DNA of 64,000 bases. Origin: Chloroflexota bacterium (GTDB lineage Bacteria; Chloroflexota; UBA11872). This document shows positions 19,048-44,142 of the stretch, in pieces. Position numbers and translations under genes: made by a program. Numbering within the stretch: position 1 is the first letter of the stretch; every line of letters starts with the position of its first letter. The stretch covers positions 1 to 64,000 of the forward strand of contig JAPOWQ010000028.1 of assembly GCA_026707585.1 (NCBI GenBank), given 5' to 3'. Under the pieces are notes generated by a model. That model was given only the letters and a program-made list of their open reading frames with translations, did no database searches and was not told the origin of the DNA.

Positions 19048-20607
19048 GTGACGCCCGCCCGCCGACTTCTCAGCCGTCGGCTTGCGACTCACGCCCCCCC
19101 GCCTGTGCTGGTGGCCTGCCTGGCCCTGGTCCTGATCGCGGCCGTCTACGCGCGCAGCCTCGACAACTACTTCCAATCCGACGACTTCGACTGGCTGTAT
19201 ACCTACGGCCTGCACGCGGCGTCGATCGGCACCGTCCAGGCCGTGCTTGCGCTGCCGGATCCGGCCGCCGTCGATCCTGCGGATCCCTTCACCTGGAACT
19301 ACCGTCCCACCACGGCGCTCCTCGTAAACCTGCTGTATCGCCTGTTCGGCGTAGCCGCGCCGGCCGGTTATCACGCGGTGCTGATTGCGGGCCACTTGGT
19401 GGCCTCGGTGCTGGCCGGCCTCCTGGCCAGCCGCCTCACGCGCCGCAGCTGGATCGGCGTAGCTGTAATTGCGGTGTTCGGGCTCCACTTCGCACACGTG
19501 GAAACGGTGGCTTGGTTTGGCTCGATCGCCGAAGTGCTGGCCGGCGTGCTCGCGCTGGGGGCAGCGCTTGCATTCCTGCAGTTCCGTCAGTCAGACCGCA
19601 CCCGCTGGGCCTGGACCACGGTATTGGTCTACGGCCTGTCGCTCGGCGCCAACCCTACGGCAGCGCCGATCCTCGGCCTGTTTCTGCTGGTGGACCTCTG
19701 GCGCTTCGCTCGTGGCGACGGACGGTGTTGGCGGGCGTTTTGGGTCTATCTGCCGCTGCTGGCGCTGGCGGGCGCCTACCTCGCCATCGAAGCCGCTGCG
19801 CTGAGCGTAGCGGCCGGCAGTGGCGGCTACGGGTACCGTCTCGGTCCCCACATGCTCCTCAACGCCGTCTGGTACCCGACGGTGCTCCTGGCACCGTTTA
19901 CCGAGCCGGAACTGTTCGATGTGCACCGCGCGTTGCTTGCCATTCTGGATGGAGGCGGCACGATCGCTGACGCGCTGGCGACGCCGCAATTCGTTCCCGT
20001 CCTCGCTGCGCATCTTGTGGTCGTCGGCGCACTTCTCCTGGTTGCGGTTCGCGGTCCGGGATGGGCTCGACTGGCTGGTGGCGCAGCGCTGGCTCTTGAA
20101 GCGCCATTCGTTCTGCTCGGCGGAACGATGTTTCACTTTGCCTATCTGCCCGCCGCTTTTTTTCTGACGCTCGGCGTTGCCGCGCTGGTCAGCGCCTGTC
20201 GACTGATTGTCAAGTCGCCGGCCTGGTCCTGGATGCCAGCGGCAGGGCTGTTGGTCCTTGCCACAGGTCTTCTGGCCTGGCAGACGCATGACCGCCTGGA
20301 CGACTGGGAGTTCGCGGCCGGCCTGAGTCACCGTCTGGTGCAGAGTGCCCATGCCGAGCTTGGCGAGGTGCCGGCGGGGTCGACCATCATTACCGCGGAC
20401 TTGCCGAACACGGTCAATGGCGCCTTCGTCTTTCGCGAAGGATTCCCGGCGGCGCTCAAAGTTACTTACGGCCGCGCGGACCTGGAGGTTCAGACATTCA
20501 GTCGGCCAGTCCTGACACGCCTGATGTCGGAGTCCGGTGTAGGCGATCGCCGGTACTTTCTCACCTACGACCCACTGGCCAGGGTGCTTCGTCGCGAGGC
20601 GCCCTGA
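19048..20607 (+). CDS. multi-pass membrane protein, GT-C glycosyltransferase-like
   Basis: 519 aa with about ten hydrophobic helices and a short extracytoplasmic C-terminal domain. After the first helix (residues about 19-35) the loop reads NYFQSDDFDWLY; an acidic pair in the first outer loop is the hallmark of GT-C lipid-linked sugar transferases. Start is GTG with GGTGGAG seven bases before it. It opens a 16.6-kb stretch of similar membrane proteins and would use polyprenyl-phosphate sugars at the outer face of the membrane. Confidence 0.7.
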   Translation: MTPARRLLSRRLATHAPPPVLVACLALVLIAAVYARSLDNYFQSDDFDWLYTYGLHAASIGTVQAVLALPDPAAVDPADPFTWNYRPTTALLVNLLYRLFGVAAPAGYHAVLIAGHLVASVLAGLLASRLTRRSWIGVAVIAVFGLHFAHVETVAWFGSIAEVLAGVLALGAALAFLQFRQSDRTRWAWTTVLVYGLSLGANPTAAPILGLFLLVDLWRFARGDGRCWRAFWVYLPLLALAGAYLAIEAAALSVAAGSGGYGYRLGPHMLLNAVWYPTVLLAPFTEPELFDVHRALLAILDGGGTIADALATPQFVPVLAAHLVVVGALLLVAVRGPGWARLAGGAALALEAPFVLLGGTMFHFAYLPAAFFLTLGVAALVSACRLIVKSPAWSWMPAAGLLVLATGLLAWQTHDRLDDWEFAAGLSHRLVQSAHAELGEVPAGSTIITADLPNTVNGAFVFREGFPAALKVTYGRADLEVQTFSRPVLTRLMSESGVGDRRYFLTYDPLARVLRREAP

Positions 20608-20639: not shown

Positions 20640-22205
20640 TTAGCTCGGACTGAACTCCAGTACGCTGACCTTCGTCTTTGCGCCCGGACGCTCGAATTCG
20701 GCCACCGGTGTGAACTCCGGGTTGAGATGGAGGAACGTTGCTTCGTCGTCCTGATTGCCGTTGATGAGGGCGTACACAGGGACACCATGTCTTCGCCAGG
20801 CGTCTGCAACGCCGCCCGCGGGGTGACGAATGCGGGTCTCAACGTGGGTTGCCACGTCTGGTCGATTCCGGAGTGTGAGGACGGCAAGGTCCCTGGGTGC
20901 GCCGTAGACATGGTTCGTGAGCACGATCGCGGGACCAGGTTCGGCGGCGGTCGCCTCGGCGATCCATTGGAGCGCCTCCGTCTGTCCGAAGCCCGACGAC
21001 CACTCTTCGATGTATTGCGCGCGGTCGTCGCTAGAGAGAGCGGCTCGCGTCGGAGCGACGATGACGACCAGGGCCGGGACGGCAAGTGAGAGCAGAACGG
21101 CGAATGTGGCGCCAACCATCCACAGGGACGCCGCATGACCTTGATTGGCCTGGCGGAGCGCGGTGCCAATGACTGCAATCGTGCGTGCGGTCAGCAGCGC
21201 CAGCGGCACAAGGGCGGGCAAGGCGTAGCGAGAGTAGAGCCTCGCTCCGAAGACGATGTGGAACCCGAGCCAGATCACCAGCACCGCCCAAAGCCACCAG
21301 TCGTCACGTCGGCGCGTGACCAACGGCAAAGCCAGTCCGGCGATGGCGGCAACGATGGAGACCGCTGGAAGGTAGGCCAGGGCCCAGCCGCCCATCTGGG
21401 ACAGGTTGTCGGCCCATTGCCCGACGGGGACTGCCACGAGCCGGTCGGGAGTCAGCACGAATCCCCGCGCGTGCTCGAAAGTCTGCGCTGACTTCGGGGC
21501 CAGCAGGAACGCGATGCCCGCGACGCTGGGTGGGACGATGCAGGCCGCGAGTGTCAGCGCGCGGCGCCAAAGTGCGAGCCGGGCGACGAGCATGATGCCG
21601 ACAGCCGGAATGATCAGGAGCAGCGCACCGCTGACCTTCGTCCAAAGGGCCAGCGCCACGACGAGGCCGGCGCCGAGTGCGTGCGGCAGACGGCCTCGGG
21701 CTGCGCGTGCCGACAATGCCCAGACGAGTGCGGTCAGCATTACGATCAGCCCGTCCGTCAGGGCCAGCCGGCTGGTGAAGACCAGGGCGGGCGAGACGGC
21801 CGTGACGGCAGCGGCGATTGCCGCCGGCCATGCGCCGACGAGCCGTGAGCCCGCGTGGAAAACCAACGCCACCGTCAACAGACCGCTGAGGGATGTAATG
21901 AGGCGGCCGGTCAGGATCGGATCGTCCAACCAGCGTTTCGTGCTGGCCAGCACCCAGATGAATGCCGGAGTCTTCCAGTCCTCGTGAGTCGAAAGCCAAA
22001 GCGTTTCGGCCGATGGCGATTCGGCAAGACGAAGGGCCCAGCGTGCATAGACGGCTTCATCGACGAATGCCGGGAAGTCATCAAGCTTTGCTAGCAGCAT
22101 GACGGCGCTCACCAGAACGGCCACGGCGCCTGCGGCGTGCGGCGTTGCAGCGCACCGCGCCGCCGCGTGCAGGCGGCCGAACAGGCGCGATCGTTCGGCA
22201 CTCAC
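20640..22205 (-). CDS. GT-C glycosyltransferase, PMT/ArnT-like (GT39/GT83 type)
   Basis: 521 aa from GTG at 22205. The open frame extends further upstream but those residues are Arg-rich and run towards the divergent gene. After helix 1 the outer loop reads FVDEAVYARWALRLAES, the D-E pair of GT-C enzymes, followed by THEDWKTPAFIW as in ArnT-like proteins. About ten membrane helices and a soluble C-terminal tail. It would move a sugar from a polyprenyl carrier to lipid, glycan or protein. Confidence 0.75.
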   Translation of the reverse strand: MSAERSRLFGRLHAAARCAATPHAAGAVAVLVSAVMLLAKLDDFPAFVDEAVYARWALRLAESPSAETLWLSTHEDWKTPAFIWVLASTKRWLDDPILTGRLITSLSGLLTVALVFHAGSRLVGAWPAAIAAAVTAVSPALVFTSRLALTDGLIVMLTALVWALSARAARGRLPHALGAGLVVALALWTKVSGALLLIIPAVGIMLVARLALWRRALTLAACIVPPSVAGIAFLLAPKSAQTFEHARGFVLTPDRLVAVPVGQWADNLSQMGGWALAYLPAVSIVAAIAGLALPLVTRRRDDWWLWAVLVIWLGFHIVFGARLYSRYALPALVPLALLTARTIAVIGTALRQANQGHAASLWMVGATFAVLLSLAVPALVVIVAPTRAALSSDDRAQYIEEWSSGFGQTEALQWIAEATAAEPGPAIVLTNHVYGAPRDLAVLTLRNRPDVATHVETRIRHPAGGVADAWRRHGVPVYALINGNQDDEATFLHLNPEFTPVAEFERPGAKTKVSVLEFSPS

Positions 22206-22385
22206 GTCACGTGGCCAATGTCGTCGTTGAATGGGAGCGCCGGCGCCTCCACAGCATGCGAAGCTGTCTCGGTTCGGTCTCGGGTGCGTCGTAGGCTCTG
22301 GCGCGCGTCTCGTGGCGTTAGAGGCCTGCGCCGTACGCTCATGCGGCAAGCTGATCCAAGTTCTTGCAACTCCTACAGTCGAGCG

Positions 22386-23891
22386 ATGACACCGTCGGGC
22401 CCCCAAGCCTCCGGCACGGGGAATAGCGTTTCACGGCGAGATGTTGCCCGCGCCGCGGTTGTGGCGCTGCTGGCCGGCCTCGTCTATCTGCTCTCGTCCG
22501 GGGCGCACGCTTATAGCGTAGATGAAATCACCAACTACGCTTCGGCGCGGGCGCTGGTGGAAACGGGCAGTCCCGACCTGGCGGGCGAGCAGCCGTTTCC
22601 TCGCGAACAGCTGTTGACGCTCAGCCATCCGTCGGCCGACCGGACGACAAGCCGCTATGGATTCCTGTCCTGGGCGGCCATAACACCGGCCTATCTGGCA
22701 GCGAGTTGGTTAGATTCACAGCCGCCGCCGCCCTCGCAGGCGTTTCCTCAGCCCAGCGCAGTGCGTCCCGTAGCAGCGTTGTTGTACGGCCCGGTCGTGG
22801 CGGCCGCCCTGGTTGGCGCGACCTTTCTGCTTGGGCGCAATCTGGGCTTGCGCCCGCGCTCTGCCCTGGCCGCCGCGCTGATCCTGGCGTTTGCAAGTCC
22901 GCTCTGGGTTTATGCGAAGGGGCTGGCCAACATCCCGCTGGCCGCTCTGCTGGCGGTGCTGGCGCTTGTGCCAGTCACTCGTCCTTGTCCGGATGCCCGC
23001 CATTGGACAGCCGGCGGCGTACTGGCCGGGCTTGCAGTGGTTACACGACCGGAGTTCGTCGTCTTCGGGGGCATAGGTGGCGTACTGAGCCTGATGGATT
23101 GGAAGCGTGGACATCGGACCGGTTTAAGCCACTCACTGGTCTACCTCGCTGCGTGGGCCGCGATGGCAGTTCCGGGCGTCGGTCTCTGGAACCTGTATCG
23201 GACTGGCGGATTCCTTGATGTCGGGTATCGATCAGCGTCGATTCTGTGGCAGACGGAGCGAGCCTACATTGGGGTTTTTGGGTCTCTCGCCAGCCCCAGT
23301 TTTGGGCTGCTGGTTTTCATGCCGGTAGCAGCGGTTGGCTTGCTGGGGTTGCTTACAAAGGCATCACACCGACCAGTCTGGCTGGCCATGCTGGCGCTGG
23401 TTGTGATGGCGGCCGTCGGCTATGGCTCGTTTCACGATTGGTCCGGCGGTGTGTCATGGGGGCCGCGGTATCTCACTTCGGTTACGCCGTTCCTGGCGCT
23501 TGGCGTGGGTGCGGTGCTCCAGATGCCTTCTACGACCCTGGCCGTACGACTCGCCACCGCCGGACTCGCGGCTTGGTCGTTGGGTCTGGCGGCGCTTGGA
23601 GTTCTGTTCGACTATCAGACGGGCTGGCGGAACCTCTGGGATCATGGCGCACGGCCGGAGCAGGTGCTATGGAACCCTCATTTTTCGCTGATCGGCGCAC
23701 ATCTTCGGCTGGCCAGACAGTGGCTGGACGGTCTGATTGGACCCGACCTCTATCTTGTCCAGCGTCTGGGTGCGTGGGCGCTCGTCGTGCTGGTGATTGG
23801 TCTGCTCAGCGTGCTCGGACTTGCCCTGGTCATTGAGGGACGCCTTCCTTGGCGCAACAGCAACACAGGCGCACCCGTCCTACCGGAATGA
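22386..23891 (+). CDS. GT-C glycosyltransferase-like multi-pass membrane protein
   Basis: 501 aa from ATG at 22386; open sequence further upstream is Arg-rich and not protein-like. The first helix (AAVVALLAGLVYLLSS) is followed by the outer loop HAYSVDEITNYASARAL with the D-E pair. About ten helices in all. It is divergent from the previous gene and convergent with the tandem array that follows. Role presumably in the same surface glycan pathway. Confidence 0.72.
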   Translation: MTPSGPQASGTGNSVSRRDVARAAVVALLAGLVYLLSSGAHAYSVDEITNYASARALVETGSPDLAGEQPFPREQLLTLSHPSADRTTSRYGFLSWAAITPAYLAASWLDSQPPPPSQAFPQPSAVRPVAALLYGPVVAAALVGATFLLGRNLGLRPRSALAAALILAFASPLWVYAKGLANIPLAALLAVLALVPVTRPCPDARHWTAGGVLAGLAVVTRPEFVVFGGIGGVLSLMDWKRGHRTGLSHSLVYLAAWAAMAVPGVGLWNLYRTGGFLDVGYRSASILWQTERAYIGVFGSLASPSFGLLVFMPVAAVGLLGLLTKASHRPVWLAMLALVVMAAVGYGSFHDWSGGVSWGPRYLTSVTPFLALGVGAVLQMPSTTLAVRLATAGLAAWSLGLAALGVLFDYQTGWRNLWDHGARPEQVLWNPHFSLIGAHLRLARQWLDGLIGPDLYLVQRLGAWALVVLVIGLLSVLGLALVIEGRLPWRNSNTGAPVLPE

Positions 23892-23949: not shown

Positions 23950-26853
23950 TCACCGAACTAGCATGGCATCGAGCGACCCTTCGTAGGTCTTATAGGTCAC
24001 GGACCCATCGCCGGCCAGGGTGAACTGCAGCACTGGTATCAGCCCGACCTCTTCGCGATTGATGTTGGGTCGGGCGGCGAGTATCCAATGGCCGGGCCGA
24101 AGCGGCGGCTGGGGCTCGGCGAGGCTGGTGTAGTCGGTTCCGTCCCAAACGGCGAGGGTGCCGGTCCGTGGATCGAATTCGTAGAGATAGACGTACTCGT
24201 GAGTCGTGGTTGCGGGGACGGGCTGGACCTGACCATCAAACCAGCGCACAAAGACCTGGTTGAGCCTGATGGTGTCGAAGCGGTAGGGGAGTCGCCAGGG
24301 AGACGCATCGGTCGCGACGACGACCCAATCCTGGCCCTGCCACAGGTCGGTGGCGCGATCGGTGAACGTGGCCGTAAAGGCGATACGGCCGTCAACGGAC
24401 CGCACCTCGGAGAGCTGGATGCTGAAGTCGGATGGTGGAGGGGGCATGAGTGGCGCCACCGTGCCGCTGGGCGCGTAAACGGCGGCTTGCTGATTCCACC
24501 AGATGGGGCGACGAGCCGCAGGCGCGAATGCAGCGGGCGCGATTTGGGCCGGCGCAACAACGAAACCAGGTGTCCGCGGGCCCACGGCGGTGATCGGGAT
24601 CTTGCTTAGCAAGTAGGCGCTCTCAAGCTCTCCCGAGCCATGCAGCCGCGCATGTGGCAACGCCATCGCGATCAGCGTGACCTGTCGCGATTGGATGCCT
24701 GGCGCCAGGTAGACGGATGCGGAAGAGGGGATGGCCTGCCGAAGGGCCTCGAACGAATCCGCGGCCGGCGTGGGATTCATTCGCAGAAACGCCGGCTGGA
24801 TGCGGTAGAGGGACTCGGCTTCGCCCTGCACCAGGGCTTGAAAGAGCCGGGGATCGTCCAGCCAGCGTTGGGCTCGCACGGGCAGCGTGGCGACCCAGGT
24901 GCTGGTGGCGTGCACGTAGCTGAAGCCCAGCCGACGAACGGCTGCCGGTTCGAGGAAGCGCAATACATCGTCGTATTCCGGGCCGGCATACGGGAGGAGG
25001 TGGAGACGGCCGGCCGGGCCCGAGGCATTCGGTCGGCCTGTCGCAATAGTCAGCGCGATGGGATGGGGAGAGAAAATCCGCGCATCGACTGCCGTCTGCT
25101 CGCGGATGTAAGCCCGAACGGATCCGGAGGCAAACGGCGAGATTGCGGTGCGCCCCATCCATCGGAACGACTCGCCGAACTCGGAATGATCGGGCTGGGC
25201 GTTCGCCAGGTGGATGCCGCGGTTGAGCGCGACAGCGAGGGCGCCGGTGGGGGCGGCGAGTGTAGGCCAGATTGCGAGCAAAGATACTGAGGCAAACGCC
25301 ACGAAGCGCCAGCGGGGGCGCAGGGCGCGCAGGCGAAGCGCGGCCGCCACCAGCAGGGCCAGCAGGGCAAAGTTACGGGCGTGCCCGTCCAAACGAACGG
25401 CGTCGCCGGAGATCTCATACCGCAGCACTAACCCGGCGATCAAGAAGACGCCGCTGCTGATTGCCAGCGCCATAACTAGCCGGTGGCCCCTTCCCAGCAA
25501 CGCGGCTCCACCGGCGACCACGGCGGGACCCAACCCCAGCAAGCCAAGACCACCAGGCCCAGGCAAGAAGAACCCTATCGGATGGCGGTGGCTCGCGACT
25601 CCAATCCACCCAACAGAAAGTCCCCCGCCCAGCGCGCCGCTCAACGCCCCGGTAATCATGCTGCCTCCAACGGCCAGGAGTAGCGCGGCCAGCGCCGGCC
25701 CCGTGGCCGCGCGTAGCAGCGCAAGCGCGTGCAGAGGCTCACGCTCGGTAAGCCGGAAGGCTCCCGGAATCCGAGCGAGGCCTCGGCGCTCAGGGCCAAC
25801 ACCGGTCTCGGAGGCCAGGGTCCCGGCGCGCAAAACCGGCAGCGCCAGGAACCGGGCCGCCTCCCTGCTGGCCCAGAGTGCCATTACCACGAGTGCGATG
25901 GTCTCGTCGGCGAGCCCCAAGAACGCGATGAGTGCGGCGACTGTCAGTGGCGCGGTCCAGCTACCGGACCGGTGAGAGGCGACTACATACTCCAGGACCA
26001 CAAGCGACAGGGCGTAGGCGAACGGAAAGGCGGGCTTCCAAATGTTGGGAGGGGATGCCGCTGGTTCTGGTTCGGCCCAGGGAAATTGGATGTCCGGCCA
26101 AAAGATGTTGCTAAGCGAGGCACCAACGTCGCCACTCGGGAGCCCCGACGGCAGGGGGATTTGCAAAATCACGGGGGCGTCACCAACGAGCACCAGCGTC
26201 CAGGCGCCAGCCGTTAGCATCAGCGGTCCAAGAACGATCGCGGCGGGCCAGGCCCCGTGGCGGTACAGCGTGGCGAGAACGACCATGCTGAGGCTCGTCC
26301 AGGCGTACACGCCAACCAGTTCGGTCGTAAACGCCAGATCCGGTCCGATCGGCGGAGCCAAGAGCCCGATGGCCAGGTCCATTCCGTAGTGGTAGGGGAC
26401 AACGGTCCAGGGATTCCAGGGCGTAACCGGCGGCCAGTTCCCGGCCCGAATAAGGGCCGCGAGTCCCAAGTGGAGTTCGGCATCGGGAATCGCGATTACC
26501 TGGCGGCCAGCCAGCGCGATCCAGGACAACACCAAGGCCAAAGTGCAGAACATGGCCAGCGTTCGCCCTGGGAGCTTCAATACTTGAGGCGAGCGGAAAA
26601 GTAACCCGACCCCGAGCGACAGCATGACGACCCAGCCGGCGATTGCCCCTGGCAGCCCGGGCAGTAGGTGGAGGGCGAAGCTGACGCTCAGGCCCCAGAG
26701 CGCCGGACCGATCACCAGGCCTTGCGCCAGCGCCATGAAGTGGTTGCGCTGGCGGAGTGCGACCCGCGCGACCATGTAGCCGAGCGCCGCCAGGGCCAGA
26801 AGTTCAACCGCCAGGAGCACGAGGCCGGGGAGACTTGTCGGGTCTACCGTCAT
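23950..26853 (-). CDS. giant GT-C-like membrane protein, tandem copy 1
   Basis: 967 aa. About a dozen N-terminal membrane helices (residues 1-560) and a long extracytoplasmic C-terminal region. The first outer loop holds PDAELH at 123-128, a D-x-E pair as in GT-C enzymes. It is followed by WPPVTPWNP and YHYGMDL, which recall the YYY/DUF2298 type of archaeal and Chloroflexota membrane proteins. The C-terminal 150 residues (DFSIQLSEV through YEGSLDAMLVR) look like a beta-sandwich and are strikingly alike in all four copies. It is last in the tandem run and 106 bases from copy 2. Sugar donor and acceptor unknown. Confidence 0.7.
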   Translation of the reverse strand: MTVDPTSLPGLVLLAVELLALAALGYMVARVALRQRNHFMALAQGLVIGPALWGLSVSFALHLLPGLPGAIAGWVVMLSLGVGLLFRSPQVLKLPGRTLAMFCTLALVLSWIALAGRQVIAIPDAELHLGLAALIRAGNWPPVTPWNPWTVVPYHYGMDLAIGLLAPPIGPDLAFTTELVGVYAWTSLSMVVLATLYRHGAWPAAIVLGPLMLTAGAWTLVLVGDAPVILQIPLPSGLPSGDVGASLSNIFWPDIQFPWAEPEPAASPPNIWKPAFPFAYALSLVVLEYVVASHRSGSWTAPLTVAALIAFLGLADETIALVVMALWASREAARFLALPVLRAGTLASETGVGPERRGLARIPGAFRLTEREPLHALALLRAATGPALAALLLAVGGSMITGALSGALGGGLSVGWIGVASHRHPIGFFLPGPGGLGLLGLGPAVVAGGAALLGRGHRLVMALAISSGVFLIAGLVLRYEISGDAVRLDGHARNFALLALLVAAALRLRALRPRWRFVAFASVSLLAIWPTLAAPTGALAVALNRGIHLANAQPDHSEFGESFRWMGRTAISPFASGSVRAYIREQTAVDARIFSPHPIALTIATGRPNASGPAGRLHLLPYAGPEYDDVLRFLEPAAVRRLGFSYVHATSTWVATLPVRAQRWLDDPRLFQALVQGEAESLYRIQPAFLRMNPTPAADSFEALRQAIPSSASVYLAPGIQSRQVTLIAMALPHARLHGSGELESAYLLSKIPITAVGPRTPGFVVAPAQIAPAAFAPAARRPIWWNQQAAVYAPSGTVAPLMPPPPSDFSIQLSEVRSVDGRIAFTATFTDRATDLWQGQDWVVVATDASPWRLPYRFDTIRLNQVFVRWFDGQVQPVPATTTHEYVYLYEFDPRTGTLAVWDGTDYTSLAEPQPPLRPGHWILAARPNINREEVGLIPVLQFTLAGDGSVTYKTYEGSLDAMLVR

Positions 26854-26959
26854 TCAGGACATCGGCTGCGGTGCCCGCTGAAGCGGGTTGACGCCACAGC
26901 GTGCCTCGCTGCCGCGTTGCCGGGATTGAGGGCGCAGGGTGGCGATTTGCAATGAAGCA

Positions 26960-29773
26960 TCAGCGAATCAGCATGGCGTCAAGCGAACCTTCATAGGTCT
27001 TGTAGGTTACGGATTCGTCGTCGGTAAGGGTGAACTGCAGCACTGGAATCAGACCGACTTCCTCGCGATTGATGTTGGGTCGCGCGGCGAGTATCCAGCG
27101 GCCGGGCTGAAGTGGCGGTTGCGGTGACGAGAGGCTGGCGTAGCCACGTCCATCCCAAACTGCCAGGGTCCCGGTGAGCGGCTCAAACTGGTAGAGGAAG
27201 AGATACTCGTGCGGAGGGCCTTCGGGCTGGGGCTGGACCTGGCCGTCAAACCAGCGGGCAAAGCCGGAGGTGAAGGAGTCGGTTTCGAATCGGTAGGGAA
27301 CTCTCCAGGGGGAGTCGTCGGTCGCGATAACAACCCAGTCCTGGCCTTGCCAGCGATCGGTGGCGCGATCGGTAAAAGTGGCGGTAAATGCGAGGCTACG
27401 TTCGGCGACTTGCACGTCCGAAAGCTGGATGCTGAAGTCGCGTGGCGGCGGGGGCACGACGGGGGACACCGCGCCGCCGGGCGCGTAGACGGCGACTTCG
27501 TGATTCCACCAGACAGGGCGACGAACAGTAGGCGCGAATGCTGCGGGAGCCATCTGGGATGGAACCACCACGAAATCGGGATATCCGGAGCCCAGTGGCT
27601 GAATTGGAAAGTCAGTCAAGCGATGAATGTTTGACTTGTCCACGGAACCGAATAAGCGTGTATGCGATAGCGACGCGGCTATGCGAAGTCCAACTTTGGG
27701 TAGAATTCCTGGAGGAAGATAAACCGAGGACGAAGTAGGAATGGCTTGGCGCAGGTTTTCGTACGAGTTGAAATCGTAGATGTCGTTTAGGAGTAGGAAT
27801 TCTGGCTTAATGAGGTAAAGAGCGTCGGACTCGCTTCGCGCCAACTGCTCGAAAAGATGTGTGCTGCTCAGCCATTGCCGGGCGTGATCGGGCAGGCGTT
27901 CGACCCAGGCCTGTGTCGCATGAACGTAGCTGAATCCGCGCCGTCGGATTGCCCGAGGCTCCAGATACCGCAAGGCATCGGTATATTGGGCTCCTTCCAC
28001 GTGCAATAGATGTACGTGGCCAGCCAGGCCGGAGGCGTTTGGGCGCCCAGTTGCAATGCTCATCTCGACGGGATAGGGAGACAATATAAGGGCATCTACC
28101 GTCGTGTTATTACGAATATAGCTAACCACCTGGTCCGAGACTTGATGGTCCATGGCAAAGCGTCGCAGGTCGTGGTGGTATGGATTGGCGTCGGTGCTCA
28201 AGACTCCTGGCTGAGGATTGCTAAGCTCCAGACCGCGCCCGATCCCCGCGGCGATGGTGTGGGCGGGCCGCGCCACGGTTGGCCAGACAATGAGCGCGAC
28301 GACAACAGTGCTGGCCGCGAAACGCCACCGCGGTCGAAGACCGGGCAACCGGTCGGCGAGCGCCAGCAGCAGGGCCAGCAGCGCCAGGTTGCGCGCATGC
28401 CCGTCAAAACGGGTCACGTCGATGGGTGAGGTCTCGTAGGTGATCGTAAGGGCGGCAGCCATACAGGCCAGGCTCCCGGCGACCAACGCCACGACGAGGC
28501 GATCACGCCAGGCAAGCAACGAAGCGACCGTCGCGATGGTCACGGCCCCGATACCCAGCAATCCGATGCCTTCTGGCAGTGTTTCAAAGCGACCCAGCGT
28601 CTGACGATCTAATGGATCATGGATCCAACCAATCGAAATGTCAGATCGAGGCTCGCCAGACAATATGGCGGTCAATCCCCCTCCGCTGAAGGCCAAAAGT
28701 AGAACCGCTGCGACCGGTCCAAGGATGGTTGAACGGAGTACGGTCCAGGAAGTGGGGCGGCTGGCTAGATGCGGAACTATGTGGGACGCAATCAGTCCAA
28801 TCCACAGCACGATGACCAGCAGTGCCAACTCCTCACTTAGAATTCCCTGGAACCCGATCAGTGCGGCGAGCGTGAGTGCGCCAAGGCGGGACTGATCCTG
28901 GCCCGAAGCGGCGTACCACAGCACGATGAAGGCCAACGCGTACGCGAGCACGAAAGGCGGTTTCCAAATGTTGGCCGGCGCACCTCCAAGCTTGGATTCC
29001 CAAAGCGAGGGAATCTCGGGCCAATAGAGATCTCCAAGGGAGGCCACCAGCTTGGACGATGGGACTTCAGTCAGGACTGGAATCTGAAGAATATTCGGCA
29101 ACTCGGCCCCATGCAGAGTCCAGCTTCCGTCGGTAAGCAACAATAGCGAAAGCGTGAGTGCGATGAGCCATCCGCTTCGCTTCAGCAACGCGACGGCGAC
29201 AAGCAGGGCGAAGCCGGTCCAGGCGTAGGCACCGATCAGTTCGGTCACGAAGACCGAATTCGGGCCGACCGGTGGCGCAAGCAAGCCAACGAGCAGGTCG
29301 ACTCCATGGTGGTAATACGCCGGCGACTCGGGATTCCAGGATGTGATCGGCGGCCAACCACCGGCCTGGATATAGGCGCTCAACCAAAGATGTAGCTCCG
29401 GGTCTGGGACTTTCAGCAGCTGTCGGGATGCCAACATGGCCCAGAACAGGGCTACGGTCGCGGCCGTGAACGTGGCAAGCGTGCGAGGCGACATCCGCAA
29501 GGTCTGCGGCGCATGCCGGACCAGGGCGGCGCCAACCACGAGGATGACGACCCAACCTATGGCGGCGGCCGCTGGGCCGGGGAAGACAGGGAGCACGGAG
29601 TTGACGCAGAGCCCCCAAAGCGCCGGGCCAATGACCACCCCCTGCGCCAACGCCACGCCGTCTTCTGTTTGCCGCAGGGCCGCTCGAGCGACGACGACGC
29701 CGAAGACTGCAAGAGCGATGAGTTGCAGCATGAAGAACAAGAGGCCGGGGAGGACGGCTGGATCTACCGTCAT
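26960..29773 (-). CDS. giant GT-C-like membrane protein, tandem copy 2
   Basis: 937 aa with the same layout as copy 1: PDPELH at 123-128, WPPITSWNP and YYHHGVDL, many helices, then the conserved C-terminal domain ending YEGSLDAMLIR. The final 150 residues are closest to copy 1. The stretch encoding roughly residues 600-700 (about 27.6-27.96 kb) is visibly AT-richer than the same stretch in the other copies, hinting at a mosaic origin. Start MTVDPAVLPG matches the other copies exactly in register. Confidence 0.7.
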   Translation of the reverse strand: MTVDPAVLPGLLFFMLQLIALAVFGVVVARAALRQTEDGVALAQGVVIGPALWGLCVNSVLPVFPGPAAAAIGWVVILVVGAALVRHAPQTLRMSPRTLATFTAATVALFWAMLASRQLLKVPDPELHLWLSAYIQAGGWPPITSWNPESPAYYHHGVDLLVGLLAPPVGPNSVFVTELIGAYAWTGFALLVAVALLKRSGWLIALTLSLLLLTDGSWTLHGAELPNILQIPVLTEVPSSKLVASLGDLYWPEIPSLWESKLGGAPANIWKPPFVLAYALAFIVLWYAASGQDQSRLGALTLAALIGFQGILSEELALLVIVLWIGLIASHIVPHLASRPTSWTVLRSTILGPVAAVLLLAFSGGGLTAILSGEPRSDISIGWIHDPLDRQTLGRFETLPEGIGLLGIGAVTIATVASLLAWRDRLVVALVAGSLACMAAALTITYETSPIDVTRFDGHARNLALLALLLALADRLPGLRPRWRFAASTVVVALIVWPTVARPAHTIAAGIGRGLELSNPQPGVLSTDANPYHHDLRRFAMDHQVSDQVVSYIRNNTTVDALILSPYPVEMSIATGRPNASGLAGHVHLLHVEGAQYTDALRYLEPRAIRRRGFSYVHATQAWVERLPDHARQWLSSTHLFEQLARSESDALYLIKPEFLLLNDIYDFNSYENLRQAIPTSSSVYLPPGILPKVGLRIAASLSHTRLFGSVDKSNIHRLTDFPIQPLGSGYPDFVVVPSQMAPAAFAPTVRRPVWWNHEVAVYAPGGAVSPVVPPPPRDFSIQLSDVQVAERSLAFTATFTDRATDRWQGQDWVVIATDDSPWRVPYRFETDSFTSGFARWFDGQVQPQPEGPPHEYLFLYQFEPLTGTLAVWDGRGYASLSSPQPPLQPGRWILAARPNINREEVGLIPVLQFTLTDDESVTYKTYEGSLDAMLIR

Positions 29774-29884
29774 TCGGCTAGTCCCGGTTGCCGCAGACTG
29801 GAGCCCGCTGGACTTAGCGTGCGATGGCGGAAGCTGCGCTGGCTGGCTGGCGGTAAGGAGTCGGGGCGACTCGTGGCATTGGGG

Positions 29885-32707
29885 TCATCGGACCAGGAGG
29901 GCACTAAGCGAGCCTTCATGAGCATTGAGGGAAAGGTCGGCGTCTGCGGTGAGCGAGAAATGCAGAACCGGTATGAGACCGACTTCGTGGCCATTGATGT
30001 TGGGCCGCGCGGCCAGCAGCCAGTTGCCGCGGCCGAGGGCTGGTTGTGGGGGGCCGAGGCTAGCGAATTCATGCCCGTTCCATACGGCCAAGGTCCCTGT
30101 TCGCGGATCGAACTCGTACAGGAAGAAATACTCCTGGGTGGCGGTCTCCGGAACAGGTTGAACCTGACCCTCGAACCAGCGGACGAAGACCTGCGTGAGC
30201 TTCATGGTGTCGAATCGATAGGGGAGCCGCCAGGGTGACGAGTCGGTAGCTACGACCACCCAATCTTGTCCCTGCCAGCGGGTGGGGGCGCGATCGGTGA
30301 ACGTGGCGGTGAAGGCGAGGCGACCGTCCGTGAGTTGCACGTTGGAGAGCTGGATGCTGAAGTCGGGCGGCGGAGGGGGCATGAGCGGCGCCACCGCGCC
30401 GCTGGGCGCATACACGGCAAACTCGGGAGTCCACCAGATGGGCTGGCGCGTGGTTGCAGGCAAGCTGGAGGGCGCCAGCCGCGCCCGCATCGCCACAAAG
30501 TCAGGTGTCTGCGCGCCGACCGAGCCAATAGGTATGTCTGTCATCAGGTGGTCTCTGACCACGTCCACCGCACCGAGCAATTGGGTATGCGATAGCGCCA
30601 CAGCCAGTCTGGCGCCGTCTTGCGGCGGGAGCCCTGGCGCCAAGTACACCGTGGCTGTCGCGGGAATGGCCTGCCGCAAGGCTTCGAACGACGCAGGATT
30701 CGGAGACACGTCCAGGCTGAGAAACGCCGGTTGGACGCGGTAGAGAGCGTCGGCATGGCCCTGCACTAGGAGTTCAAAGAGCCGGGGATCGTCCAGCCAG
30801 CGTTGGGCGCGGTCGGGCAGCGTGGCGACCCACGCGTTGGTGGCGTGCACATAGGTGAAGCCCAGCCGGCGAGTGGCCCCGGGCTCGAGGTAACGCACCA
30901 CGTCTTCGTACCGAGGGCCGGTGTGCAAATTGAGATGGAGATGTCCTGCGAATCCCGAGGCGTTGGGTCGGCCCGTGGCGATGCTCATCGCAATTGGGTG
31001 CGGAGAAAAGACGCGGGTGTCGACGGGCGTGTGATTGCGGATATGGCGGATCACGCCGGCGGAAATCGGGGTATCGATGACGAAGCGCCGCAGATCGAAG
31101 TGGTATGGGTTGGTGTCCGTATCCCGGACTCCCGGTTGGGTGTTGGCCAGCTCCACGCCGCGACTGACGCCGAGAGCGACCGTTCGGGCGGGCAGCGCGA
31201 CCGTTGGCCAAACGACGAGCACGGCGATCAGGACGCAGACGCCGGCGCGCCAGCGGAGGCGCAGGGCCGGCAGGCGGCTGGCCAGGGCCACCAGCAGAGC
31301 CAAGAGGGCGAAGTTGCGAGCGTGTCCGTCAAGACGCGTGACATCAAACTGGGATGCCTGGTACTGAACGGTCAGCGCGCCAGCCATGCAAGCCAGGCTG
31401 CTGGCGGCGAGCGCCAGCACCAGACGGTCACGCCAAGCCACAACCAATGCGAGCGCCGCCGTTGCGATGGCTCCGATGCCCAGGAGACCAAGGCCACCGG
31501 GCAGCAGGTCAAAGCGGCCCCAGGCTTGTCGGCTCGAGGGATCGCTGATCCAGCTGAGCGACACGTCGCCTCGGGGCGCGCCAGTCAGCATTGCGGTCAG
31601 CGCTCCTCCGCCCAGCGCCAGCAGGAGGACGGCTAGCGCAGGGCCCGTGAGGCCGCGTCGGAGCGCTTCCGCGGCGGTGCGCCGATTCCTGGGCAATTGA
31701 GCAATGTGGATGGCCTCCAGTCCGATCCAGAATCCGAGGATCAGGAGCGCGATTTCTGCACTTGCGACGCCGAGGAATCCAGTCAACGCCCCCAGCGTTG
31801 GGGCGATCAGCCGGGAGGCGCGCCGGCCGGCGGCTGCGTGCCAGAGCACGATGAATGCCAGCGTATAGGCCAGCACGAACGATGGTTTCCAGATGTTGGC
31901 GGGATATCCGTCCCGCTCGGAAGTCCACGGCAGCGAAACTTGCTCGGGCCAGTACAGGCTGGCCAGCGAGTCGCCCAGCCCGGCGGCGGGAATCTCCGTG
32001 GGGACGGGAATCTGAAGCACATTGGGGATCTTTTCTATGAACCCGACCAGCGTCCAGGCGCCGGCGGTGAGCAACAGCGGCGATAGGGTGAGGACGCTGA
32101 GCCAGCCGCCGCGATGTCGCACGGCGGTGGCCACGACCAGGGCGAAGCTGCACCACACGTAGGCGCCGATCAGTTCGAACATGAATGCCGGATTCGGTCC
32201 GGACGGCGGCGCCAGCAAGGCGACCAGCAGATCGACACCGTGGTGATAGTGCAGGACCAGGTCCGGATTCCAGGAGGCGATTGGCGGCCAGCCACCGTTC
32301 GTGATGTAGGCGGTCAGACTCAGGTGCAATTCCGAATCGGGGATTTTCATCAACTGCCGGGCGGCCAGCGTGATCCAGAAGAGCGCCAGGGTGACGGCAA
32401 TGAATCCGGCCAGCGTGCGCGGCGGCACACGTAAGACTTGCGGGGCGCGCCAAATCAGGATCGCGCCAATGGCCAGGGTGATAGCCCAGCCCAGCAGCGC
32501 GCCGGTTCGACCGGGCAGGAGATAGAGGATCAGGCTGACGCACAGTCCCCAAAGAGCCGGTCCAACAACCAAGCCGTGGGCGAGTGCGAGGCAGTCATCG
32601 GCCTGTCGCAGCGCTACCCGGACGACCACAAAGCCCACGGCCGCCAGCGCCAGCAATTCCACGGCCAGGAGCAGCAGGCCAGGGAGGACGGCCGCGTCAA
32701 TCGTCAT
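29885..32707 (-). CDS. giant GT-C-like membrane protein, tandem copy 3
   Basis: 940 aa. PDSELH at 123-128 and WPPIASWNP, HYHHGVDL follow the first helices; the C-terminal beta-rich domain ends AHEGSLSALLVR. Copies 3 and 4 resemble each other most in the membrane part (HYHHG and the helices around it). Spacing to copy 2 is 111 bases. All copies share the FxYVHAT-x-AW segment after the membrane part, which may be part of a substrate site outside the cell. Confidence 0.7.
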   Translation of the reverse strand: MTIDAAVLPGLLLLAVELLALAAVGFVVVRVALRQADDCLALAHGLVVGPALWGLCVSLILYLLPGRTGALLGWAITLAIGAILIWRAPQVLRVPPRTLAGFIAVTLALFWITLAARQLMKIPDSELHLSLTAYITNGGWPPIASWNPDLVLHYHHGVDLLVALLAPPSGPNPAFMFELIGAYVWCSFALVVATAVRHRGGWLSVLTLSPLLLTAGAWTLVGFIEKIPNVLQIPVPTEIPAAGLGDSLASLYWPEQVSLPWTSERDGYPANIWKPSFVLAYTLAFIVLWHAAAGRRASRLIAPTLGALTGFLGVASAEIALLILGFWIGLEAIHIAQLPRNRRTAAEALRRGLTGPALAVLLLALGGGALTAMLTGAPRGDVSLSWISDPSSRQAWGRFDLLPGGLGLLGIGAIATAALALVVAWRDRLVLALAASSLACMAGALTVQYQASQFDVTRLDGHARNFALLALLVALASRLPALRLRWRAGVCVLIAVLVVWPTVALPARTVALGVSRGVELANTQPGVRDTDTNPYHFDLRRFVIDTPISAGVIRHIRNHTPVDTRVFSPHPIAMSIATGRPNASGFAGHLHLNLHTGPRYEDVVRYLEPGATRRLGFTYVHATNAWVATLPDRAQRWLDDPRLFELLVQGHADALYRVQPAFLSLDVSPNPASFEALRQAIPATATVYLAPGLPPQDGARLAVALSHTQLLGAVDVVRDHLMTDIPIGSVGAQTPDFVAMRARLAPSSLPATTRQPIWWTPEFAVYAPSGAVAPLMPPPPPDFSIQLSNVQLTDGRLAFTATFTDRAPTRWQGQDWVVVATDSSPWRLPYRFDTMKLTQVFVRWFEGQVQPVPETATQEYFFLYEFDPRTGTLAVWNGHEFASLGPPQPALGRGNWLLAARPNINGHEVGLIPVLHFSLTADADLSLNAHEGSLSALLVR

Positions 32708-32804
32708 TCAGCCAGTGTCCGCCATAGCAGCCAAGAGCACGTCTGCGAGTGCGATCCGTCAAGCACTCGATGCCGACTGGTTGCCGACGGCGTATCGAGC
32801 GGAT

Positions 32805-35645
32805 TCACGGCGTCGTGGCTTTCGACCGGATCAGCGTGGCGTTGAGCGAGCCTTCATAGGCGCTGAACGTCACGTTGCCGTCGTCGGTCAGCGTGAATTG
32901 CAGCACGGGAATCAGCCCGACCTCGCGGCCATCGACATTGGGCCGGGCGGCCAGCAGCCACTCGCCGGGGCCAAGGGCTGGTTGTGGCGGACCCAATCTG
33001 GCGTATCCCGTCCCATCCCAGACCGTCAGCACGCCTGTTCGAGGCTCGAACTCGTAAAGGAAGAAGTACTCGTGGGTGGAGGTTTCCGGAACGGGTTGGA
33101 CCTGGCCTTCAAACCAGCGGACAAAGACCTGGGTGAGTCTCATCGTGTCAAAGCGGTAGGGGAAGCGCCAGCGGGAGGCGTCGGTGGCGACGACGACCCA
33201 ATCCTGCCCGTGCCATAGGTCGGTGGCGCGATCGGTGAACGTAGCGGTGAAGGCAATGCGCCCATCGGCCATTGCCACATCGGAGAGTTGAATGCTGAAG
33301 TCGACTGGTGGTGGGGGTAGCAGCGGCACCGGATCGCCTTCGGCCGCATAGACGGCGAGGTCGCGGTTCCACCACATGGGCCGGCGGGCATTTGCCGGGA
33401 AGGCGGACGGAGCCAACTGCGCCGGTGTCGCGAGAAAGTCCGGCGTCTGCCTGCCCAGCGGCCGCGTAGGGATGTGTGTGATCAAGTGGACTGCTCCCGG
33501 GTCCACTGTGCCGAGAAGCTGCGCGCGCGACAGAGTCACTGCCAGTCGGATGCCATCGGTTGGCTGGATCCCTGGCGCCAGATACACCGTGGCCGCCGGG
33601 GGGATTGCCTGCCGCAGGCCTTCGAACGACGCTGGACTCGGGGGTACGTCCAGGCTGAGAAAGGCCGGCTGAACGCGGTACAAGGCGTCCGACTCGGTCT
33701 GGATCAGTCGTTCGAATAGCTCCGGGTTGGCCAGCCAGCGTTGGGCGCGGGCGGGCAGCGTGGCGACCCAGGCGTTGGTGGCGTGGACATAGGCGAATCC
33801 CAACCGCCGCATGGCTCCGGGTTCCAGGTGGCGCAACACGTCCTCGTACTGGGGATCGGTCAACGGTCGGAGGTGAACGTGACCTCGGAGCCCTGAGGCG
33901 TTGGGGCGGCCCGTGGCGTTGCTCATCGCGACTGGGTGGGGCGAAAAGATGCGAGTGTCGACGGGCGAGTGGTTGCGGATGTACCGGGTCACGCCGACGG
34001 ATAGTGGAGTTTCGATGACGTAGCGCCGCAGGTCGTAATGGTACGGGTCTGAATCGGACTCCCAGGCTCCAGGTTGCGTGTTGGTTAGGTTCACACCGCG
34101 GCTGACGCCGTGAACAACCGTGCGAACGGGCAGCGCCACCGTTGGCCAGACGACAAGCGCGGCGATCAGGACGCAGGTTCCAGCGCGCCAGCGTGGGCGC
34201 AGGGCTGGCAGGCGCCCGGCTAGGGCCAGCAGCAACGCCAGCAGTGCGAAGTTGCGGGCGTGCCCGTCAAAGCGCGTGACATCGTACTGGGATGGCGGGT
34301 ATTGCAGGGTCAGCGCACCGATCATCAATGGAACGCTGCTTGCGGCTAGTGCCACCACCAGGCGGTCACGCCAGGCGAGGAGCGACGCGATCACCGCTGT
34401 CGAGATGGCCCCAACGCCCAAGAGCCCGATGCCACCCGGCAAGAGTTCAAAACGTCCCAGGGCCTGGCGTCCAAACAGATCATCGATCCACTCCAGGGAA
34501 AACTCGGCTCGGGGCGCGTTTGTCAACGTCGCGGTCAGCATGCCCCCGCCAAAGGCCAGCAGCAGGAGAGCCAGCGCCGGGCCCGTTGCCGCGCGCAGCA
34601 GTGCGATCAGTGCCGTGCGTCGGCTTGGTGATAGCCGAACGATCTGGAATGCCGACAGGCCGATCCAAAGCCCGAGGACGAGAATTGCGATTTCTGAACT
34701 GACGACGCCGAGGAATCCAATCAGCGCCGCCAGTGTGGCGGCGGCCGGGAAGGATCGGCGCCGGCTGGCGGCCGCGTGCCATAGCACGATGAATGCCAGC
34801 GCATACGCCAGCACGAACGGCGGTTTCCAGATGTTTGGCGGCACTCCATCAAGACGGGAGGGCCAGGGCACGGGGAGGTCCTGCGGCCAGTACACGCCGA
34901 TCAGCGAAGACCGTAGTCCGGTCGTTGGAATTGCCGCGGGGACGGGAACCTGAAGGAGGTTGTCGATCGGGTCCTGAAACCCGACCAGCGTCCAGGCGCC
35001 GGCGGTCAGCAACAGCGGCAACAAGATGAGGACGCTGAGCCAGCCGCCACGGTGTCGTATGGCGGTGGCCACCACCAGGGCAAAGCTGGTCCACACGTAG
35101 GCGCCGATCAGTTCGATCATGAATGCGAGGTCTGGGCCTGACGGCGGTGCCAGCAGCGCGACCAGCAGGTCAATGCCATGGTGATAGTGAAGGACGAAGT
35201 CGGGATTCCAGGAAACGATTGGTGGCCAGCCGCCGTCCCTGATGTACGCGGCCAGTCCCAGGTGTAGTTCCGGATCAGGGACTTTCATCAACTGCCGGGC
35301 GGCCAGCGCGACCCAGAAGAGCGCCAGGGTGACGGCGATGAAGCCGGCCAGTGTGCGCGGAGGCACCCGCACGATGTGCGGGGCGCGCCAGGTCAGGATC
35401 GCGCCAATGGCCAGGGTGATTACCCAACCCAACAGCGCGCCGGCCAGGCCGGGAAGCAGATACATGACGAGGTTCACGATCAAGCCCCAGGTCACCGGGC
35501 CGATCACCAAGCCCTGGGCCAGCGCCAGGCGGTGGTCCGGCTCCCGCAACGCTATTCGTGCGATAACGAATCCAACCGCCGCGAGCGCCAGCAATTCCAG
35601 AGCCAGGAGCAGCAGACCTGGGAGGATCGAAGGGTCAAGGATCAG
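32805..35645 (-). CDS. giant GT-C-like membrane protein, tandem copy 4 (probable CTG start)
   Basis: About 946 aa if it starts at CTG 35645. That start gives (M)ILDPSILPG, in ungapped register with MTVDPTSLPG and MTIDAAVLPG of the other copies, and puts PDPELH at 123-128 as in all of them. AAGGGGA lies eight bases upstream. No ATG, GTG or TTG fits this position; TTG at 35594 would remove the first 17 residues, including most of the first helix. Otherwise the layout is as in copies 1-3, with HYHHGIDL and the C-terminal domain ending YEGSLNATLIR. It is the first gene of the array. Confidence 0.7.
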   Translation of the reverse strand: MILDPSILPGLLLLALELLALAAVGFVIARIALREPDHRLALAQGLVIGPVTWGLIVNLVMYLLPGLAGALLGWVITLAIGAILTWRAPHIVRVPPRTLAGFIAVTLALFWVALAARQLMKVPDPELHLGLAAYIRDGGWPPIVSWNPDFVLHYHHGIDLLVALLAPPSGPDLAFMIELIGAYVWTSFALVVATAIRHRGGWLSVLILLPLLLTAGAWTLVGFQDPIDNLLQVPVPAAIPTTGLRSSLIGVYWPQDLPVPWPSRLDGVPPNIWKPPFVLAYALAFIVLWHAAASRRRSFPAAATLAALIGFLGVVSSEIAILVLGLWIGLSAFQIVRLSPSRRTALIALLRAATGPALALLLLAFGGGMLTATLTNAPRAEFSLEWIDDLFGRQALGRFELLPGGIGLLGVGAISTAVIASLLAWRDRLVVALAASSVPLMIGALTLQYPPSQYDVTRFDGHARNFALLALLLALAGRLPALRPRWRAGTCVLIAALVVWPTVALPVRTVVHGVSRGVNLTNTQPGAWESDSDPYHYDLRRYVIETPLSVGVTRYIRNHSPVDTRIFSPHPVAMSNATGRPNASGLRGHVHLRPLTDPQYEDVLRHLEPGAMRRLGFAYVHATNAWVATLPARAQRWLANPELFERLIQTESDALYRVQPAFLSLDVPPSPASFEGLRQAIPPAATVYLAPGIQPTDGIRLAVTLSRAQLLGTVDPGAVHLITHIPTRPLGRQTPDFLATPAQLAPSAFPANARRPMWWNRDLAVYAAEGDPVPLLPPPPVDFSIQLSDVAMADGRIAFTATFTDRATDLWHGQDWVVVATDASRWRFPYRFDTMRLTQVFVRWFEGQVQPVPETSTHEYFFLYEFEPRTGVLTVWDGTGYARLGPPQPALGPGEWLLAARPNVDGREVGLIPVLQFTLTDDGNVTFSAYEGSLNATLIRSKATTP

Positions 35646-36127: not shown

Positions 36128-37522
36128 ATGACGCAGCCCAACATTGTGTTGATCGTGGCCGACGACATGGGGTACGGCGACTTTGGGATGTTCAATGACG
36201 GTCCGGCGCAGACGCCAGCTCTGGACGGGCTGGCGGACGAGAGCGTGTGCCTGACGCAGCACTACTCAGGCTCATGCGTGTGTGCGCCCGCGCGGGCCGC
36301 TCTGATGACGGGGCGATATCCGCACCGCACCGGAGCCATCGACACGCTGGAGGGCCAGGGACTCGACCGGCTGGCGCTGCGGGAAGTCACGCTGGCCGAC
36401 CACCTGCGGGCTGCGGGATATGCCACCGGCATGGTAGGCAAGTGGCACCTGGGAGCGCTGGATCCGCGTTTCCACCCGAACGCCCGTGGGTTTGATGACT
36501 TCTTTGGGTTTCGCGGTGGCTGGGCGGACTACTACAAGTGGCGCATCGACCGTAACGGGACAATTGAGCACTCCGACGGCCGCTATTTGACGGACGTATT
36601 CGCTTCCGAGGCGTCGGCGTTCATTGCACGAAATGCACAGCGGCCCTTCTTTCTGCATGTCGCCTTCAACGCGCCGCACACGCCGCTGCAGGCGCCACAG
36701 GAGCTCGTTCAGCCCTATGTGGACGCCGGTCTTCCACATGGCGTGGCGCTGATCTACGCCATGAATGAGCGCATGGATGCCGGCGTGGGCCAGATTCTCG
36801 ACGCACTGGACCAAACGGGCTGTGCCGACAACACCGTCGTCATGTTCACAAGCGACAACGGCCCCCAACTTTCGCGCGGATTCGACTACACCATGGGCAT
36901 CGAAGTGGATACGCATCGCTTCAACTGCAACTTCAATGGCGCCAAGGGCAACGTCTTCGAGGGCGGGATTCGCGTTCCTATGCTCGTGCGCTGGCCGGAC
37001 GGACTGCCGGCCGGACAGCGCAACGATGCACTGGTCCACTACGTTGACTGGCTGCCGACGCTGATCGAGGCGGCCGGCGTCTCGAGGGTCGGTGGTCGGC
37101 CAATTGACGGAGTTAGCGTGCTGCCTGCGCTCCGCGGCGAGATACCGGCTGCTGCACCGCGACGGTACTGGCAATGGAATCGCTACACGCCACAGGTCGA
37201 GTGCAATGCCGCGATCAGGAATGGCCGCTGGAAGTTGGTGCGGCCGCGAATCACAGAACTGATGAGTGTCCGGCCCGAACACACCCAGATGGACCGTGAC
37301 CTGAAGTATCGACCCGATCTTCACGCGGCGGCGATTCCGGCCGACATTCCGGAGCGTGACTTTCCACCTCCGGAAGCCCCGATGCTGTTTGACCTCGAGC
37401 TTGATCCCGGGGAGCAGAACGATCTGTCGAACGCCGAACCGCAGCGAGCCGCCAGGCTGCTTGGCGAGTTGGAGTCCCTGTTCGAAGAGGTCGAAGCCGA
37501 GCGGCTGACGATCGCCGATTGA
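36128..37522 (+). CDS. sulfatase (Cys-type, formylglycine-dependent)
   Basis: 464 aa, no signal peptide. Metal-binding start VADDMGYGDFG and the canonical C-x-P-x-R motif CAPARAALMTG (Cys52), whose Cys is converted to formylglycine by a maturase. GKWHLG near residue 104 and TSDNGP complete the active site. It hydrolyses a sulfate ester, probably of a carbohydrate. No formylglycine-generating enzyme is in the window. It points away from the GT-C array and converges on the minus-strand sulfatase run, whose last stop is 31 bases from its own. Confidence 0.9.
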   Translation: MTQPNIVLIVADDMGYGDFGMFNDGPAQTPALDGLADESVCLTQHYSGSCVCAPARAALMTGRYPHRTGAIDTLEGQGLDRLALREVTLADHLRAAGYATGMVGKWHLGALDPRFHPNARGFDDFFGFRGGWADYYKWRIDRNGTIEHSDGRYLTDVFASEASAFIARNAQRPFFLHVAFNAPHTPLQAPQELVQPYVDAGLPHGVALIYAMNERMDAGVGQILDALDQTGCADNTVVMFTSDNGPQLSRGFDYTMGIEVDTHRFNCNFNGAKGNVFEGGIRVPMLVRWPDGLPAGQRNDALVHYVDWLPTLIEAAGVSRVGGRPIDGVSVLPALRGEIPAAAPRRYWQWNRYTPQVECNAAIRNGRWKLVRPRITELMSVRPEHTQMDRDLKYRPDLHAAAIPADIPERDFPPPEAPMLFDLELDPGEQNDLSNAEPQRAARLLGELESLFEEVEAERLTIAD

Positions 37523-37553
37523 GGCGGCGGCCCGAAGCCAGAGTCTTCGCGAT

Positions 37554-40423: not shown

Positions 40424-40431
40424 GCGACTAT

Positions 40432-41916: not shown

Positions 41917-42002
41917 CCTCCTGTTACCGGTTGTAGCTGCCCGGCGTCACTCGGTGATCCTATTCAAGCCACAGCGCGAGTTTCCCGCGGCTATTGGCCT
42001 GC

Positions 42003-42305
42003 TCAACTCCCCCCGGCTGCCTGTGCAGTCGGCGTCGTGCCCTGGGCGCTCTGCTTTTCCTGCCACTGCTGGCGCAGGCGGGCGTGTTCTTCATCGGAGA
42101 GATAGCGTCCGCTTTCGGAGCTCGTCCGTGGAAACGAGTAGTCCTCAAAGGCGCTCTTGGAGTCGCCGCAACTTGCAAGCAGTAGTGCAGCGGCAACGAC
42201 AGCAGCTCCAAGCGAGAGGCGAACACAAACGCGCGGGCGCACGGCCAGACGTTGCGTCACTGGCGCTCGGGCTCGGCAATGCAGCTGCAGGCAGGCGCAG
42301 GCCAT
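42003..42305 (-). CDS. mini-lipoprotein D with YSFPRT motif
   Basis: 100 aa from ATG at 42305, which has AGGGG with about ten bases of spacing; GTG at 42260 or 42242 are alternatives. A hydrophobic stretch (LSLGAAVVAAALLLASC) ends in a lipobox. The mature 55 residues hold FEDYSFPRTSSESGRYLSD, then a charged helix (EEHARLRQQWQEKQ). The F/Y-x-F-P-x-T core links it to the mini-lipoproteins at 10-15 kb, though without their Arg cluster. It follows the solute-binding gene by 31 bases, so the two are likely co-transcribed. Confidence 0.6.
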   Translation of the reverse strand: MACACLQLHCRARAPVTQRLAVRPRVCVRLSLGAAVVAAALLLASCGDSKSAFEDYSFPRTSSESGRYLSDEEHARLRQQWQEKQSAQGTTPTAQAAGGS

Positions 42306-42336
42306 GTAGCCCGCCCCTGCCTGGCGATCCATCCGG

Positions 42337-43959: not shown

Positions 43960-44142
43960 TCGCGCCCTCCCTGGTTTCGGCCTCGCACTGCCCTATCTCA
44001 AAGTAATCTAGGTCCGAACCATCCTCACGCTACGCCCAGCGCGGGAGGGCGTCAAACGCGCTGGCGGCATCAGGCCTTAGGCTTTGGCAAGGGCAGCCAT
44101 GCTACCGATTTCGCGAAACTGCGCCGCTAGGAGGCACTAACT

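Follow-up and report, generated by a model that had tools for sequence, protein, structure and literature searches.

Four giant membrane proteins encoded one behind the other raise the question of what such proteins do and why there are several of them. The genes lie in the window, which here means the whole 64-kb stretch of DNA that was analyzed, and their coordinates are given in Table 1 with those of the other features discussed. A sequence-only reading had described them as head-to-tail paralogues of about 940–970 residues, 97–111 bases apart, with a gapless first 120 residues and a P-D-x-E-L-H motif at positions 123–128 in all four. The alignment bears this out: the proteins have 937–967 residues, the spacings are 106, 111, and 97 bases (copies 1/2, 2/3, and 3/4), approximately the first 220 alignment columns are free of gaps, and the motif is common to all copies. 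As set out below, the four genes probably encode polyprenyl-phosphate-sugar-dependent glycosyltransferases with a GT-C fold, distant kin of the DUF2298/Chlor_Arch_YYY proteins, that would diversify a surface glycan.

Table 1. Features discussed in the text; positions refer to the window unless another locus or contig is named
Feature	Position	Strand	Description
Copy 1 (P0001)	23950..26853	(-)	967 aa; GT-C-like membrane protein; membrane part from a different lineage, C-terminal domain of the array type
Copy 2 (P0002)	26960..29773	(-)	937 aa; GT-C-like membrane protein
Copy 3 (P0003)	29885..32707	(-)	940 aa; GT-C-like membrane protein; copy used for modelling
Copy 4 (P0004)	32805..35645	(-)	946 aa; GT-C-like membrane protein; probable CTG start at 35645 after AAAAGGGG
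P-D-x-E-L-H motif, copy 3	32324..32341	(-)	Residues 123–128, first large extracytoplasmic loop; coordinates computed from gene start 32707
C-terminal Ig-like β-sandwich domain, copy 3	29888..30394	(-)	Residues 772–940; most alike part across the window array
GT-C-like neighbour	22137..23891	(+)	LA_3751/3752 glycosyltransferase model, E 5e-20, 71.8 bits, below curated cut-off of 200; edge of variable site
GT-C neighbour	20640..22406	(-)	Pfam PMT_2, E 9e-9
GT-C-like neighbour	19048..20607	(+)	~8 TM segments, the first followed by a DD motif; sub-threshold PMT_4TMC match only
Sulfatase	36128..37522	(+)	Other edge of variable site; 88–96% identical in four congeners
~750-codon ORFs at the variable site of G001, G004, G008	L125 6748-9045; L126 13331-15559; L127 12214-14460		
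Array-end copies without β-sandwich	G014:C2 32168-34543 (L057); G016:C2 13995-16538 (L045); G017:C8 22090-24441 (L060)		

Over their whole length, copies 2–4 are 52–56% identical to copy 1. For the six pairs of window copies, identity is 0.44–0.75 in columns 1–540 and 0.66–0.74 in the last ~180 columns, so that the earlier description of the C-terminal domains as almost alike is overstated. The contrast between this part and the membrane part is strong for copy 1 (0.73 in the C-terminal part versus ~0.48 in the membrane part), weak for copy 2, and absent for the pair of copies 3 and 4, which are 0.73 identical along all segments. Copy 4 needs a CTG codon to reach position 35645, the earliest ATG, GTG, or TTG start being the TTG at 35594, and its N-terminal residues align with those of the other copies only if the CTG is used; on this alignment, translation seems to begin at the CTG. 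Gene calling limited to ATG, GTG, and TTG trims 17 conserved residues from the protein (window 35594–35645). No model in Pfam and NCBIfam matches any of the four window proteins, even at an E value of 1, and the window gave no hits when scanned for Rfam families and tRNAs.

The fold was examined with an AlphaFold model of copy 3, for which 61 family members served as input (pLDDT 91.2, pTM 0.89). The model comprises helices in residues 1–516, a mixed α/β periplasmic domain (approximately residues 534–770), and a β-sandwich (approximately residues 781–940). In a Foldseek comparison with the PDB, the best match is AftA (E 3.1e-6, probability 1.00), followed by the C-mannosyltransferase DPY19 (2.3e-5), ArnT (1.4e-3), and ALG9 (0.018); the four top distinct solved structures are thus all GT-C enzymes, and the predicted structure agrees with the GT-C fold proposed from the sequence. 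The TM-scores against AftA are modest (0.33 by query and 0.48 by target), as the extra domains would cause. A sequence search of PDB chains found no match for the family which, as Pfam also gives none, does not belong to the Emb or AftA families by sequence. The C-terminal domain modelled alone (pLDDT 84.8) gave weak Foldseek matches to Ig-like sandwiches, the best being CD160 (E 1.2e-3), with the Wzt C-terminal domain at 0.02. An identity as a carbohydrate-binding module was considered for this domain and was not reached.

Among 129 full-length members of the family, position 124 is acidic in 124 (Asp in 119 and Glu in 5). By the model, this residue lies in the first large extracytoplasmic loop, where GT-C enzymes are expected to have an acidic residue. 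In GT-C enzymes generally, such a residue is the catalytic base, and Asp124 is a candidate for this role. The five copies that lack the loop acid may be inactive. Glu126 of the motif is not conserved across the family, and His128 is kept in 109 of the 129; His155, Glu178, Arg458, and the DGHARN motif (residues 460–465) are near-invariant. Close orthologues have dN/dS ratios of 0.12–0.26 and are therefore under purifying selection.

A relationship with DUF2298 had been suggested from the sequence and is supported at a distant level by profile-profile comparison, in which DUF2298 proteins match residues 18–177 (E 8.5e-6) and the middle domain, searched separately, gives a collinear match (E 3e-4). 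PF10060 finds family members weakly: a single one, a distant copy from G020, exceeds the cut-off (29.8 versus 27.8 bits), and none of the four window proteins reaches the curated cut-off for DUF2298/Chlor_Arch_YYY. The YYY-x-G motif of Chlor_Arch_YYY is absent, YHHG or YHYG being found instead. Because the evidence consists of profile matches and a weak response to PF10060, we regard the family as a distant relative of DUF2298 and not as a member by the curated criterion. The literature searched for DUF2298 gave no activity, donor, acceptor, or function, and no paper in it combines DUF2298 with a glycosyltransferase; the arrays would tie DUF2298 to sugar transfer.

The window array is flanked by three GT-C-like genes and by a stretch of genes for sulfatases and sugar uptake. 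The three neighbours had been counted with the four copies as one group of seven; they do span the membrane several times, and two of them match a family model (Table 1), but a homology search detected no relationship between them and the four copies. On its other side, the array adjoins sulfatases and solute-binding proteins, which are catabolic, and not glycan assembly genes. The run at 36128–45606 holds four sulfatases (36128, 37554, 40432, and 44143), a solute-binding protein, and a 503-residue soluble protein without a family match (38912–40423); judged from its gene content, it is likely a locus for the use of sulfated glycans.

The same site was compared in related genomes. In the congener G005, gene order on both sides is unchanged, and the flanking genes (for pyruvate dehydrogenase E1, E2, and Lpd; sulfatases; solute-binding proteins; oxidoreductases; and PhyH) are 84–98% identical to those of the window; for the GT-C-like neighbours, identity is 86% in one case and 67–75% in the other two. 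Between these flanks, where the window has four intact copies, only one of the three copies in G005 is intact; another is frameshifted, and the third is an N-terminal fragment. The intact and the frameshifted copy are only 41–49% identical to those of the window. Three further genomes (G001, G004, and G008) have at this site a single intact copy and a different ORF of ~750 codons, which has hydrophobic N-terminal stretches. The site therefore undergoes birth-and-death evolution between conserved flanks.

Repeated duplication, as proposed earlier, took place on a far larger scale than the window reveals. A second array, on contig C18 of the genome from which the window comes (3.92 Mb in 75 contigs), adds eight full-length copies, arranged as two blocks that face each other across a 5-kb core. 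In this core (L044:6422-10830), a DUF3604 protein is encoded beside an acetyl-CoA-synthetase-like gene, and ORFs of like size and placement occur in three relatives. Family matches were found in 26 of 61 genomes (this one included); in the class-level set, a genome has up to 18 matches, at most 21 candidates having been scored. On a contig of G016, twelve copies follow one another over ~37 kb, interrupted by a single unrelated ORF. The final copy of three long arrays, all in one sister genus (G014, G016, and G017), has no C-terminal β-sandwich, and a tryptophan-halogenase-like flavoprotein (L061:4919-6643) adjoins a single array copy on contig C10 of G005. In a sample of 400 genomes of the phylum, only the order of Chloroflexota to which the window belongs has full-length members, and matches outside that order are distant and partial. 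The named relatives are Chloroflexi MAGs; several appear to be derived from sponges, which would fit the Rhopaloeides odorabile and Coscinoderma matthewsi hosts of a published MAG set (PMC8163846). A paper on sponge Chloroflexi names GT2, GT4, and GT83, and the window family is not among them; no tandem GT-C arrays of such scale were found in the literature searched.

For about 80% of copies, the nearest relative is in another genome, so that many types of paralogue must have arisen before the species did; several 1:1 orthologues are 88–95% identical, and species-specific bursts, such as six copies in G016, also occur. The surroundings of the C18-type array resemble polysaccharide loci: in the window's genome an epimerase gene lies inside it, and in G006 MreB, MreC, and Lon are near one side and asparagine-synthase, methyltransferase, and GT2 genes near the other. 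The window's genome as a whole has 8 PMT_2, 2 DUF2298, and 17 GT2 matches; a search of it for a GtrA-type flippase gave none.

The C-terminal domain had been viewed as a common docking domain. This description suits the window array only and is rejected as a rule for the family: for the 129 full-length members, mean identity between arrays is 0.51 in the membrane part, 0.46 in the middle part, and lowest, at 0.40, in the C-terminal part, and some array-end copies have no C-terminal domain. Gene trees of the two parts, a comparison that the sequence-only reading had called for, differ in topology: in the membrane-part tree, copy 1 pairs with a copy from G012 (support 98), apart from copies 2–4, whereas in the C-domain tree all four window copies and three relatives form one clade (98). 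In AU tests, a grouping of copy 1 with the other array members was not quite rejected for the membrane part (p 0.061, lnL difference 33), and the middle part gave p 0.48. For the C-domain, the membrane-tree grouping was rejected with p 7e-13, a value that overstates the case for copy 1 because the tested grouping includes other copies scattered by the C-domain. Copies 1 and 3 share a tract at codons 670–679 (16 polymorphic sites, 0 of 2000 permutations), and in their C-domain dS is 1.11 versus 1.32 elsewhere and dN is 0.18 versus 0.44. Recent gene conversion as the full cause of the shared C-domain is only partly supported, since the one clear tract precedes this domain, and constraint or older exchange also contributes, because dS in the C-domain falls little short of its value in other parts. 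The combination in copy 1 of a membrane part of a different lineage with the array's own type of C-domain suggests recombination, and exchange within the array appears to be the likeliest cause of the shared domain, with constraint contributing.

From these results we infer the following mechanism. On the external face of the membrane, the enzyme would most likely use a polyprenyl-phosphate-sugar as donor and transfer the sugar to a surface glycan or glycoprotein, with Asp124 acting as the catalytic base, the middle periplasmic domain completing the active site, and the C-terminal β-sandwich probably holding the acceptor. In mycobacteria, replacement of the C-terminal domain of EmbC by that of EmbB changes the glycan product (PMC3044687); by analogy, the shared C-domain and different membrane parts of the window array would point to one acceptor that receives different linkages or donors. 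The tandem arrays of this order-specific family grow, decay, and probably recombine at fixed sites, and would so give closely related species different sets of cell-surface linkages. In a more far-reaching form, which we put forward tentatively, the GT-C genes constitute a cassette system at a hypervariable fixed site, where duplication, loss, and recombination reshuffle catalytic parts and acceptor-binding C-domains and produce different coats in related sponge-associated bacteria.

The same observations can be read in other ways. The array might be large because one big conserved polymer is complex, each copy making a fixed linkage as in mycobacterial arabinan, a reading to which the predominance of nearest relatives in other genomes, the paralogue types that predate the species, and the well conserved 1:1 orthologues under purifying selection lend weight; we consider it rather unlikely because copy number and type vary at the window's site between flanks that are 84–98% identical, with pseudogenes, and because bursts are confined to single species. 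The enzymes might instead act on proteins, either secreted or of the S-layer, in the manner of DPY19, PMT, and OST, and not on a polysaccharide, with many copies for many protein targets. DPY19, a protein C-mannosyltransferase, is the second-best fold match and an Ig-like C-domain could bind protein, but the top match, AftA, is a polysaccharide arabinosyltransferase and the larger array type adjoins polysaccharide-type genes, which makes this reading unlikely. Non-catalytic relatives that keep the GT-C shape as membrane scaffolds or transport parts would account for the few members without a loop acid; with the acid kept in nearly all members and other polar residues near-invariant, this reading is very improbable. 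The preferred reading remains that of lipid-linked sugar transfer that diversifies a surface glycan. GT-C enzymes determine the sugars that the outside world meets, and the long, fast-changing arrays suggest a continually changing sugar coat in relatives of sponge symbionts; if the arrays do vary the coat, they offer a testable handle on recognition of sponge symbionts by host and phage.

Each of the known systems closest to this one shares some of its features. EmbA, EmbB, and EmbC of mycobacteria are GT-C paralogues, ~40% identical and encoded at the consecutive loci Rv3793–Rv3795, in which a hydrophilic C-terminal domain helps to set the product (PMC3044687); there are three copies there and up to ~18 here, no sequence relation was detected, and the C-domain here is Ig-like, without an identified carbohydrate-binding module. 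AftA (8IF8) is the closest solved fold, alike in its GT-C helices and extracytoplasmic part, but is only 14% identical in the structural alignment. The serotype-converting Gtr proteins and the GT136 pentofuranosyltransferase are GT-C enzymes that use lipid-linked sugars to vary a surface polysaccharide (PMC11127046), as proposed here, but they belong to three-component systems with a synthase and a flippase, and no such partners adjoin the window array. DUF2298 (PF10060; Chlor_Arch_YYY, TIGR03662) shares with the window family the same collinear N-terminal helices and middle periplasmic domain, a loop with PP-x-x-x-W and Y-[HY]-[HY]-x-G-like motifs, and Chloroflexota hosts, and is encoded by genes of its own in the same genomes; to this common plan the window family adds the C-terminal β-sandwich and the tandem arrays, with YYY replaced by YHH or YHY.
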